Source of the DNA: Tritrichomonas foetus
Taxonomy: Eukaryota > Parabasalia > Tritrichomonadida > Tritrichomonadidae
Direction: 5' to 3'
DNA: 64,000 nucleotides
Assembly: GCA_001839685.1 (NCBI GenBank)
Contig: MLAK01000633.1
Span: 1-64,000 of the forward strand
The number at the start of each line of letters is the position of its first letter. Within the stretch, counting starts at the first letter, position 1. The position numbers and the translations under genes were made by a program. Shown one piece after another: positions 6,049 through 41,260 of the stretch. The notes under the pieces were generated by a model. That model did no database searches, had not been told where the DNA came from, and saw nothing but the letters and a program-made list of their open reading frames with translations.

Positions 6049-8906
6049 TTAAATATATATTGAGGGCAAATGAGGAATACTTTTGATAAATGATAAAATT
6101 GGTGCTCTCATTTTTGATTCGATCATTTCTGCTATTTTGGTTTGTCCAGACCTGAGAGCATTTTCATATGGTGTTAATCCATTTTTATCTTTCGTGTTTA
6201 TTTTTATTTTTGGATTAACTAATAAGAATTCTGCGATATCTTCATGCCCATATTTCACCGCAATATGTAAAGGAGTTTCTTCTATGTCATTTTTAATGTT
6301 TAATTTAGTATTTTTCTTTTGTATTATTTTCTTGAGAATTCTCTTTTGTCCTGATGCAGCTGCAATATGAAGAGGAGCAATATAAAAATAATAAATAAAC
6401 ACCTTGATATGTTTTAATGTTTTGATCACATTGTTGATGATTAAGGAATAACAAAGTATTTTCTTCATCCTCTTTCTGAATCGAAATATAAAGAGGATAA
6501 ATTCCTTTATTATCTAACACATTGATTTTTATGGATTCTTCTAACAATAACATCGAAAGTAATTTATTTGAGCAAGACATAGCTGCAATATGAAGTGGAG
6601 TAATACCTTCATTATCATGTTCATTAACATCAAATCCAGAACATTGATGAAGTAAATAATCAACCATCTCAATTCGTTGATATTCGCATGCAATTAACAA
6701 GGCAGATCGATACAAAAATAAACAAACGCCTCTCGAATCTTTTGCAAGGAGATCAATATTTTCAATATCTTTGATATATTTAAAACATTCATCATTTCCA
6801 CCAACAATTGAAAGAAGGAATGAATTCATCATGAATTTGTCTCTTTGATTGAAATCAACATAATTATTCTCATAAAGTAAAGAAAGAATCTTAATTTGTC
6901 CATAAAAAGCAGCAATATGTGCAAGAGATCTATAAATATATATTTAAAACATCGTTATTATCTTTAATTTCATTTAGATCTTTTTGATATAATGACTTTA
7001 ATATCTCAAAAGCGTCAACATTCCCATTTTTTGCAGATAGAATCAAAGGTGTCATTCCATTCTCATCTTGAATAAATACATCGATAAATGTAGATTTGAT
7101 CAGTTGTTCTATACATTCAATATTACCAAGTTCAACTCCAATATGAAGAGGTGTATACCCTACTATATTGGGGATATTTGGATTAATTCGAGATGATGAT
7201 AATAATTCCTGGACTATTTGAACGTTATTTTGCATTATAGAAACATATAATGGTGTCTGATTGAGATTATCTTCTGCGTTGATATTAATTCTATCATCTA
7301 AAAGTAAAAGTTTCACTACATCTAATTGATTGAAACGTGATGCATAATGCAATGGTGTTTGACCATTATTATTTTTATAGTTAGCGTTGATTCTATTCGA
7401 GGTAAGAATTATAGATACAATATCAAAATATCCCAATTTAGCAGCAATATGAAGTGCCGTTTGATAAATTATAATAAAAACACCTTCATCATCTGGTTTA
7501 TTAATATCTATTCTTTCATTTTTTATTAGAAACTTTACCACATGTTTTCGATGGTACAAAACAGCAAAGTAAAAAGGTGTACACTGATCATTATCAACTG
7601 CGTTAGGTTCTATATCAGGATGATTTAATAAACATTTTAATGCTTCTATCTGCCCTTTAGCTGCAGCTGCATGAAGAGGAGTTTCGCCATATTTAGTTTT
7701 AATGTTAACATCGCAGTTGCAATCGAAACAATATTTTAATATACTGATATTATTGGAAGCTGCACTTCGATGGACAATTGTTCCTAAATGTTCAACACTA
7801 GTTTGAATATTCACATTTTTATTTTTTATCAGCCATTGGAGGATATCAAAATGATAGTAAGCTGTTGCAAAATGTGCAGCACCTTCAAAATTATAACGAT
7901 TTTTGGCATAAAATGCTAAAATGTCCATATTTCCACCTGCTGCAACAAATTGTGAAAGATTTATACCAATTTTATCTGTCAAATTCGTGTTGGCACCTTT
8001 TTTAAATAAATAAGTAAAACATTTTACTGAGCCATGAAAAGCCGCAAATTGAATTATTGTTGGGTAGTTAGTCAGGATTCTTGCTTTTTCAAACACAAAC
8101 GGCTGAATTCTCATATTAACATCAAATGGAACATTTTCAACTAATACTTTTTCAAAGATAAATTTATTGGCATCAAATTCTGGCTTGTTTTCAAATTCTT
8201 TCAAACCTTCAAGATCATCATTTTGTATAATCCATTCAATTGTTCCTGGTATATAGCAATGATCTGCACATGTTTCGAGGAGCTCCCATTTTGATTTTTG
8301 GAAAAATTCCAATTTTGATAAAAACATTGAATATTTTGGTAAACCAGAATTGATCATTTCTTGTAAAACTTCATCATAGAATTGAGGTACTTCTGCCTTC
8401 AATAATGGCGCAAAATAACACAAGTATGTAAACTTCACAGAATCTTTTTGATAGTATCGAGAGCTCGATTCATTATTATCTTCTGTTGTTTTTTGATAAA
8501 GTAGTGATTTTTTCAAAATAATGGAGATAATTTCATCATTCGTAAAAAATCCCAAATGATAACATTTATGTAAAAACGATATGACAAAAACATCATCTAT
8601 ATTAGAAAACCTTTCCACCTGTAATTTCAAAATTCTATGTTTGAAATGATTTTTGAGAACTTCATCATTAATTTTTTCAAAAACTGACAAAGCGAGAATA
8701 GCAATATTGTTATGATTATATGGACGATGCTGGATTGCATTTTCAATAACATGAATCAATTCATTGAGTTTTTCATGTGATGACAAATATCCCATTTCGA
8801 TCATTTTTTCAGTCACCTCGGACACAGTAGCATTATTTATATTAAATACTAAATGTTGAAGATCAATGATTTCATTAATTCTTTGTGCGGTGAATGAGAT
8901 GTCCAT
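6049..8906 (-). CDS. DUF3447/ankyrin-repeat protein interrupted by four micro-inserts
   Basis: Read on the minus strand from the ATG at 8906 (an upstream TTG is not used). The N-terminal half is a helical DUF3447-type region, including NYPTIIQFAAFHGSVKCFTYL, and is followed by a long ankyrin array with motifs such as GETPLHAAA and GQTPLHYAS. Raw translation stops at 6930 and the array continues in other frames to 6049. Removing four 18-19 nt inserts (7464-7481, 6932-6950, 6710-6727, 6382-6400) gives segments 8906-7482, 7463-6951, 6931-6728, 6709-6401 and 6381-6049. Each is a whole number of codons, totalling 2784 nt or 927 residues plus stop. All junctions fall just before the (x)TPLH turn. 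Ankyrin arrays mediate protein binding; the partner is unknown. If the inserts are not removed, this is a broken gene. Confidence 0.85.
6382..6400 (-). other. Ankyrin-gene micro-insert D (19 nt, frame-breaking)
   Basis: Minus-strand sequence GTTTATTTATTATTTTTAT. It lies between codons for TYQG and IAPLHIAAASG. With it, the frame shifts and the ankyrin repeat is lost; without it, the repeat reads through. It could be a 19-nt non-canonical intron, another excised element, or a mutation. Confidence 0.7.
6710..6727 (-). other. Ankyrin-gene micro-insert C (18 nt, in frame)
   Basis: Minus-strand sequence GTTTGTTTATTTTTGTAT, between codons for KDSRG and RSALLIACEY. In frame it would add VCLFLY inside the ankyrin turn. 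Its boundaries are unambiguous because the flanking bases do not repeat the insert ends. Confidence 0.65.
6932..6950 (-). other. Ankyrin-gene micro-insert A (19 nt, frame-breaking)
   Basis: Minus-strand sequence GTTTTAAATATATATTTAT, between codons for KDNND and RSLAHIAAFYG. Unremoved, it brings a TAG stop into frame straight after the insert, so the upstream ORF ends at 6930. Confidence 0.7.
7464..7481 (-). other. Ankyrin-gene micro-insert B (18 nt, in frame)
   Basis: Minus-strand sequence GTTTTTATTATAATTTAT, between codons for PDDEG and QTALHIAAKLG. In frame it would add VFIIIY in the middle of an otherwise perfect DxxG-QTALH ankyrin turn. Confidence 0.65.
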
Positions 8907-39696: not shown

Positions 39697-41260
39697 ATGC
39701 AAGCTGAAGCTCCTTTCGAAAATAACATGAACAAACCACCGAAAGAAGAATATTGGATGAACCAAGAAAACGATATTCCCCAACAAAACGCGAATGACCA
39801 AATCGAGAATGATGATTATCAGCCAAATGACCAAATAGAAAACAGTATTGATCAGAATGGCATTGCTGTACAACTTGATCAAAATTCAGAAGAATTTAAA
39901 GAAGTCCAAAAAGAAAAATCACATATCGACGATATTGCAAATCACCCTGAAAATTCGCAAGAAGGCGAGTCCAACCAGAATAACCAGCAACAATCACAAA
40001 ATGAACAGCCACCAGCTCAACCATCTGCTCCAAATCACAAATCTAATAATAAGAAAAATAATTATAATGATACTAATAATAACAATAATAATTATATTAA
40101 TACTAATAATTATGATATTAATACTAATGATTATGATATTAATAATAATAATTATTGATATTAATAATAATAATTATGATATTAATACTAATAATTATGA
40201 TATTAATACTAATAATTATGATATTAGTACTAATAATTATATTAATACTAATGATCATGATATTAATACTAATAATTATGATATTAATACTAATAATTAT
40301 GATATTAATACCAATAATGAATTTAACATTTATTATGCAAACACAGAATCTTATGGAAATCACCATCAATTTTATGATCCAGTCCAACAGTATCAAGCAG
40401 AAATGAGACATAACATTCTATATGGATTTTCTAAACCATATCGGTTAAGTGATCAAGACAAATTTCGGCAAAAAATTGCCCAACATAATCACGAAATTGT
40501 TAAAACTGGAAAATATCAGCTGGGAAATATGTGGATATATGTTCAACCAATTTTAAGAACAAGCATGAATAAAACCAAAACATATCATTTCGCATTTCCA
40601 TTCAATCTTCCTCCACTTGAACAAAAATATCAGAATGTAAATCCAATAATTCATATTGTTCCTTTGTCAACTTTTGAAGCAGTGAATGAGTTATATAATA
40701 AATATCCTGATAAGGAAATTTGCTTCTTAAACTTTGCAAATGCGATCAAGCCAGGTGGTGGTTATTTAAATGGGAGAACTGCTCAAGAAGAGCAACTTTG
40801 TCGTCAATCTCTCTTATATCCTACACTCACAAAAAATTTAGAAATGTATCAATTTAATATTGAACAAAATTTGCATGAATGTGGAAGTAATTATATGATT
40901 TACTCACCACTTGTTCTATTCTTTAGAGATGATGAATTTAACCTTATTCCAGAACCATTCGCTGTAAATGTGATTACATCACCAGCAGTTGACAATAGAA
41001 ATCGTCTTGAAAATGCTCACAGTTTGATGAGAGACAGAATTATTCGAATTCTTGAACTGGCCGCTTATCATGAAAATAGAGTTCTTGTTTTAGGTGCCTT
41101 TGGTTGTGGTGTCTTTAAGAATGATCCTTATGTCGTTGCCAAACTGTTTAAAGAAGCAATCAATATGGGACAATTTAGAGGTCGTTTTGATTGTATTTAT
41201 TTTGCAATTTATCGAAGCGATCGTAATGTATCGAATTTTCGACAAGTTTTTTATCGATGA
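39697..41260 (+). CDS. PARG-like (TIGR02452/DUF2263) ADP-ribose hydrolase, frameshifted in repeat
   Basis: The first 153 codons (39697-40155) are Q/N/D-rich and end in a TGA at 40156-40158 inside a 21-bp repeat. The same repeat continues one base out of frame to the stop at 41258-41260. One unit there has an extra T (aattattgatatt instead of aattatgatatt), so a 1-base insertion explains the break. The C-terminal 300 residues are a macro-type PARG fold of the TIGR02452 family: LNFANAIKPGGGYLNGR followed by TAQEEQLCRQSLLYPTL carries the GGG-x(n)-QEE signature with the catalytic glutamate, and LVLGAFGCGVFKNDP is the usual second signature. Such enzymes remove poly-ADP-ribose. No initiator-like motif lies close upstream. 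The frameshift may be a sequencing error, somatic slippage or real damage. Confidence 0.8.
40093..40320 (+). repeat. 21-bp tandem repeat encoding DINTNNY, with 1-bp slip
   Basis: About ten units of gatattaatactaataatt plus at, some shortened to 12-15 bp. One 22-bp unit near 40147-40168 causes the frame change in the PARG-like gene. Confidence 0.88.

Follow-up and report, generated by a model that had tools for sequence, protein, structure and literature searches.

An ankyrin-repeat gene of Tritrichomonas foetus, a species reported as a parasite of cattle and cats (PMC12428144), is interrupted by four inserts of 18 or 19 nt, and many more such inserts occur in ankyrin genes elsewhere in the genome. 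Judged from sequence, they are probably introns of T. foetus ankyrin genes whose removal from the pre-mRNA, most likely the work of an ordinary U2-type spliceosome, leaves a continuous protein. The gene lies in the window, the 64,000-nucleotide stretch of contig MLAK01000633.1 that was analyzed, together with kinase, Sel1, Timeless, Ras, and CH-domain genes, a content that marks the DNA as eukaryotic.

The interrupted gene and its relatives

The gene reads as five coding pieces separated by the four inserts (Table 1). The positions and lengths given for these inserts in the preliminary description are exact to the base, with the protein evidence fixing each of them to about 1 nt only. The five segment lengths had been described as multiples of three, and all of them are; removal of the inserts leaves 928 open codons including the stop. 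Reading the pieces in turn finds the terminal stop as the sole stop in the five pieces, and the two alternative frames contain 65 and 116 stops. The unrelated stops or frameshifts that mark a pseudogene are not found along the gene. With the inserts retained, the frame ends at codon 659. Insert 3 was skipped over by the motif-blind alignments described below and was placed by direct reading of the gene. One motif-blind alignment made insert 4 longer by 3 nt, and the codon-normalized alignment agrees with 6400-6382.

Table 1. Layout of the interrupted ankyrin-repeat gene in the window.
Feature	Position	Strand	Length	Description
Ankyrin-repeat gene, T. foetus	6049..8906	minus		ATG at 8906, stop at 6051-6049
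Piece 1	7482..8906	minus	1425 nt	475 codons; N-terminal domain followed by the first ankyrin repeats; ends ...INKPDDEG
Insert 1	7464..7481	minus	18 nt	GTTT...TTTAT
Piece 2	6951..7463	minus	513 nt	171 codons; begins QTALHIAA
Insert 2	6932..6950	minus	19 nt	GTTT...TTTAT; frame-breaking
Piece 3	6728..6931	minus	204 nt	68 codons; begins RSLAHIAA
Insert 3	6710..6727	minus	18 nt	GTTT...TGTAT
Piece 4	6401..6709	minus	309 nt	103 codons; begins RSALLIA
Insert 4	6382..6400	minus	19 nt	GTTT...TTTAT; frame-breaking
Piece 5	6049..6381	minus	333 nt	110 codons and stop; begins IAPLHIAA

All four inserts occupy a common site in the ankyrin repeat, D-x-x-G | x-T-P-L-H, with insert 2 preceded by D. Their shared position, their similar ends, their GC content of 5–17%, and the many further cases in the genome bear out the earlier argument that chance indels are an unlikely cause. 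The accompanying claim that every repeat becomes regular on removal of the inserts was too strong: insert 2 follows N-N-D, and the sequence from insert 2 to insert 3 bears a weak resemblance to ankyrin. The formula proposed for the inserts, GTTT(N)10-11TAT, is one nucleotide short, the 18- and 19-nt lengths corresponding to GTTT(N)11-12TAT. The bare GTTT(N)10-11TAT formula has two matches on the gene strand and is common, as the 32 and 25 matches on the two strands of the window show. Elsewhere in the window, two overlapping plus-strand frames (39697-41260) switch near 40153 in a low-complexity tract rich in Asn, Tyr, Asp, and Ile; this resembles a minor shift of frame inside a simple repeat rather than an insert of the ankyrin class.

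Sequence similarity makes T. musculus M9Y10_041294 (P0002, 1010 aa) the presumed orthologue. The two are collinear and P0002 is without the four inserts, although it is an annotated protein model that may itself be spliced. Piece 1 aligns with P0002 up to residue 523 (39% identity), piece 2 with residues 524-708 (39%), piece 3 with 726-771 (35%, a short and weak match), piece 4 with 796-897 (47%), and piece 5 with 899-1008 (38%). The 1040-aa protein P0003 of an uncultured relative, encoded in a single open frame, is also collinear with the gene and without the inserts. As in U2 introns, the exon frame is kept across the inserts and the inserts are missing in these two relatives.

Another species offers a different view of site 1. 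In the 513-aa protein P0004 of an uncultured relative, the ankyrin sequence ends right after ...NLPDDDG and eight residues follow. Read two bases out of frame, this tail can spell QTPLHFAAKLGYFEI, which resembles the start of piece 2 and implies a frame-breaking insert of 23 nt. A QTPLHFAAKLGYFEI-like reading occurred in 0 of 5000 shuffled P0004 tails and a looser ankyrin motif in 1 of 5000, both motifs having been defined after the tail was viewed and P0004 being known here as a protein. An insert at site 1 is probably common to T. foetus and this other species, at a different length. A search with piece 2 returned distant ankyrins, with no clear orthologue fragment among the 46 matches listed. 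A pattern search of viral contigs for relatives matched five stretches, and none of the five encodes a relative.

Ends, composition, and position of the inserts

In 11 loci and 58 short stretches, insert boundaries were placed by dynamic-programming alignment against an ankyrin profile of 34 residues that holds no knowledge of splice motifs. A first profile with a 33-residue period placed the boundaries badly, and the 34-residue profile was used instead. Alignments scoring at least 20 contain 101 inserts, a count that includes some duplicates (locus L040 overlaps L061) and some long gaps too large to be taken for introns; 45 fall exactly at G|x, and of the remaining 56, 46 fall inside the same turn. 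Allowing split codons and normalizing to codon boundaries yielded 52 unique inserts at the ankyrin boundary: 34 of 17-23 nt (mean 19.8 nt), 17 longer ones, and one of 15 nt.

The 34 short inserts have consistent ends. With the cut fixed by the protein to about 1 nt and the register chosen so that GT or AT starts and AT ends line up, 31 inserts start with RT (24 GT and 7 AT) and three do not. The +1 position is G in 26 and A in 7, and T occupies +2 in 31 and +3 in 31. The phase of split codons is ambiguous, GG|N..A|T and GGN|..AT| yielding identical protein. The motif YTNAY, which is branch-site-like, is located at the very 3' end in 28 of the 34, and six ends do not fit it; position -5 is Y in 32, -4 is T in 32, -2 is A in 31, and -1 is T in 32. 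Translation through the insert is blocked by a frame break or a stop in 29 cases. The 23 short inserts that had not been picked by pattern behave similarly, with an RT start in 20, a YTNAY end in 17, an AG end in none, and 20 that cannot be translated through. The 17 longer boundary inserts (37-90 nt) end in YTNAY in 14 cases and start with RT in 5; RT starts are few partly because some of these inserts resemble two in a row. The GT...AG ends of U2 introns are absent, AG ending 0 of the 34 short and 0 of the 17 longer inserts. The inserts are 61.5% T and 24.6% A on the coding strand, a strand bias that argues for recognition as RNA. The codon preceding the insert is GGN in 28 of the 34 short cases.

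Two single cases were noted beside these counts. In the 5' part of L057, a 21-nt insert GT...TTCAG stands directly before TGG ACA CCA and is the only AG-ended case seen by eye. The C-terminal 50 residues of TRFO_37525 (P0030) contain ...HNG-VIFNIH-LTALKYAQ..., which resembles an 18-nt insert translated as coding sequence and would be explained if the inserts are introns. Locus L085 encodes 119 residues of this protein with no difference (108 consecutive 12-mers), which identifies the genome as that of T. foetus.

Some repeats carry inserts on both sides of the Gly codon. At L003, L007, L009, and L010, a single GGN codon stands between two inserts of about 19-20 nt, and with this codon kept the repeat reads D-x-x-G-x-T-P-L-H or close to it. 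A regular expression for this tandem arrangement gave seven candidates at 184 anchors, two of them doubtful (L007 1382 and L073), and missed one L003 case visible by eye. At some sites (L092) an insert is found before the Gly alone; the regular expression for this form is unspecific by itself, since it also picked up a coding repeat with no interruption (L008 1727). At the tandem sites, either a 3-nt exon would be kept or both inserts would be removed as one.

Distribution in the genome and the splicing machinery

The genome searched comprises 63.7 Mb in 1064 contigs. A genome-wide scan for a GTTT...TAT insert in ankyrin context gave 11 matches versus 0 in a backwards control. A wider ankyrin-context pattern gave 33 rows (about 30 separate places) versus 0 backwards, with insert lengths of mostly 16-23 nt and some of 31-43 nt; both of these sets are motif-selected. 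For an unselected sample, the upstream DNA was inspected at every one of the 47 genomic copies of the anchor ACWCCWCTTCATWTTGC, 39 in 38 newly taken stretches and 8 in loci already sampled. An anchor was scored as interrupted if a stop lay within the last 14 codons or if at least four of the last seven residues were hydrophobic. By this rule 21 of the 47 are interrupted and 26 are continuous; on visual inspection, three of the latter (L060, L075, L079) also seem to be interrupted. In 10 of the 21 interrupted anchors YTNAY directly adjoins the exon, whereas any other offset in the range -3 to 15 accounts for 0-3 of them; 2 of the 26 continuous anchors have YTNAY against the exon. Of 39 ankyrin anchors, 21 have a stop in the 99 codons upstream. 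At least six insert sites occur within one 3-kb locus (L003).

A kinase control of 15 anchors showed no insert of the ankyrin class. Four of these anchors have a stop within 99 codons upstream, and the breaks at L094, L098, and L106 are small indels or point changes. Kinase loci L094 and L095 have the same residues and appear to be duplicates. Frame-changing RTTT...YTNAY elements of 17-23 nt that lie between coding stretches were counted next: 18 in 33.2 kb of ankyrin loci versus 3 in 235.8 kb of other sequence. Of the 11 ankyrin loci, 10 had been chosen because they contain an insert, and some few of the 18 elements resemble shifted readings of a neighbor. Three control motifs gave 3-6 in the ankyrin loci and 1-3 in the other sequence, and the canonical GT...AG form gave 0 in both. 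Nine frame switches from a noisy coding-potential scan were read closely; eight are clearly outside the insert class and the ninth (L016) is doubtful. As far as sampled, the insert class is concentrated in ankyrin genes. The L016 case is a 22-nt plus-strand stretch, GTTT...CTCAT (305-326), located where a gene encoding a GTPase-like VVVGASGVGKT motif probably begins; it is possibly a 5' UTR insert or chance.

Components of a spliceosome are present in the genome. A U6 gene has a normal ACAGAGA box and scores 40.8 bits, slightly under the Rfam cut-off of 44, and two U2 genes with a normal GUAGUA score above their Rfam cut-off. A Prp8 domain (PF10597, which we take to be part of Prp8) lies in a single open frame of 2326 aa. 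A U1 search of the genome gave nothing above noise. Searches for U12 and U6atac had a best E value of 1.4 each, below the cut-off, and bacterial and archaeal control genomes gave matches too; a U12-type origin of the inserts was rejected because neither RNA was found above noise. The pattern GTAYGT(1-30)ACTAACACACAG has 0 genome matches within its gap limit of 30 nt, a span too short for longer type A introns. ACTAACACACAG, the T. vaginalis 3' end, occurs 17 times in T. foetus versus 11 times backwards, with no clear excess.

Proposed removal, alternatives, and known short introns

Ultra-short introns had been named as the leading explanation in the preliminary description, and the genome-wide and orthologue evidence supports this reading, from which we infer removal at the RNA level. 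The gene would be transcribed with its inserts, the spliceosome would take out each RTTT...YTNAY, and the message would then be continuous. The recognition signals would be a 5' RTTT (usually GT, in some cases AT), a middle part rich in T, and a 3' YTNAY that abuts the next exon without an AG and may serve as the branch site. Most of the inserts occupy the turn that links adjacent ankyrin repeats, directly following or preceding the conserved Gly codon, and an old intron at this place may have been copied together with the repeats. We tentatively propose, with rather less than even confidence, a working class of introns of about 20 nt that would have a YTNAY| 3' splice site directly behind the branch motif, no AG, a GT or AT start, and a location largely confined to ankyrin-repeat turns, in places as two introns around a 3-nt Gly exon. 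To our knowledge, the lack of AG at the 3' end together with a branch-like A at -2 is without precedent for the major spliceosome. With U2 and U6 genes that look ordinary here, such ends count against ordinary splicing, as do the variation among the insert ends and the U1 search that gave nothing above noise. The rarity of the elements outside ankyrin genes, where they are no more frequent than the control motifs, is odd for general introns.

The absence of AG, the AT starts beside GT, and the near-absence of inserts from other genes would also suit RNA excision by non-spliceosomal means, for example by an endonuclease and a ligase. This is unlikely in view of the GT start in 24 of 34 inserts, the branch-like YTNAY, the T-rich middle, and a size near that of known tiny spliceosomal introns. 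It is quite unlikely that the gene and its relatives are pseudogenes broken by small insertions. The genome is rich in repeats, and pseudogenes may be present among its ankyrin copies; 4 of the 15 kinase anchors have upstream stops, which in the three read closely reflect small indels or point changes. Decay would not readily account for inserts that are alike in ends, length, and repeat position, for 928 codons without another stop, for the identity to P0002 that pieces 4 and 5 retain (piece 3 is less clear), or for the insert that P0004 seems to have at site 1. P0004, from another species, seems to have an insert too, and the same end pattern recurs at tens of separate loci, so an assembly or sequencing error is hardly credible, even in an older draft genome with simple frame breaks in some kinase loci.

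Ribosomes hop over inserts in translational bypassing, examples of which are phage T4 gene 60 and Magnusiomyces mitochondria. Known bypassing uses Gly take-off codons, and the GGN before 28 of the 34 inserts fits this pattern. However, the ankyrin consensus has Gly at this position in any case (seen in 19 of 24 repeats without an insert, under a selection rule that favors G), and inserts also follow other codons and precede Gly. T4 bypassing needs a matching landing codon, and none is present at the inserts, which leaves this mechanism very improbable. Next to no weight is given to excision at the DNA level, like that of the internal eliminated sequences of ciliates. The inserts are short, AT-rich, and precise as such elements would be, but they have a strong bias of T over A on the coding strand, and we know of no nuclear dimorphism in trichomonads.

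Splicing of short introns remains the preferred reading, and published annotations bear on it. The annotation of T. foetus KV-1 is reported to hold 36,149 one-exon and 3,035 multi-exon genes with at most two exons per gene, and introns with a mean of 175 bp and a range of 5-898 bp (PMC11415386). A gene with four introns cannot be modeled rightly under a limit of two exons, and some of the inserts are possibly annotated already among introns that reach down to 5 bp (PMC11415386). The unusual insert ending does not seem to be described by published gene annotation, and no description of the insert class was found in a search of the open-licence PMC literature. Introns are reported in 5.66% of T. 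musculus genes (PMC11978803) and in 5.2-5.7% of Histomonas genes, with at most one intron each (PMC8529796). A list of 42 Giardia introns includes one 30-nt GT-AT junction (PMC10711314).

If spliced, the inserts would rank with the shortest nuclear introns of all, and as a class they would depart from the AG rule. A branch-site motif would then be able to act as a 3' end, and 3-nt exons could perhaps be joined. U12-type introns have a branch motif near the 3' end and a 5' RTATCC. The inserts resemble them in having AT as well as GT starts and differ in their 5' RTTT and in a genome with no U12 or U6atac above noise. Introns of the Bigelowiella nucleomorph and of heterotrich ciliates have GT-AG ends. 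Their reported sizes, 18-21 bp and 15-16 bp, respectively (PMC10245619), are in the range seen here. Unlike the T. foetus inserts, these introns are spread over many genes. Introns of mikrocytids, unrelated parasites, are alike in their uniform extreme shortness (16-17 nt) and conserved sequence; the 224 reported lie in 179 genes, mostly of gene expression and the cell cycle where annotated (PMC10245619), whereas the T. foetus inserts are concentrated in one repeat family.

The closest comparison is with other parabasalids. T. vaginalis is reported to have 63 active introns, the shortest of 23 nt, and ankyrin genes are among the reported hosts of both Trichomonas intron types (PMC12316389). 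The type B introns of T. vaginalis and T. stableri (23-28 nt) share with the inserts a parabasalid host, a very short length, a poly-T middle, and a GT start (PMC12316389). In the introns of T. vaginalis, a 12-nt motif at the 3' end has the branch site (ACTAA) fused to the AG (PMC12316389), whereas the T. foetus inserts are 17-23 nt, may start with AT, have no AG, and carry a 3' motif that stops at YTNAY. They lack the ACTAAC and ACACAG 3' end that defines type B at 23-28 nt. We suggest by analogy that taking the ACACAG tail off a 23-25-nt type B intron of T. vaginalis would leave the size and the order of parts seen in the T. foetus inserts.
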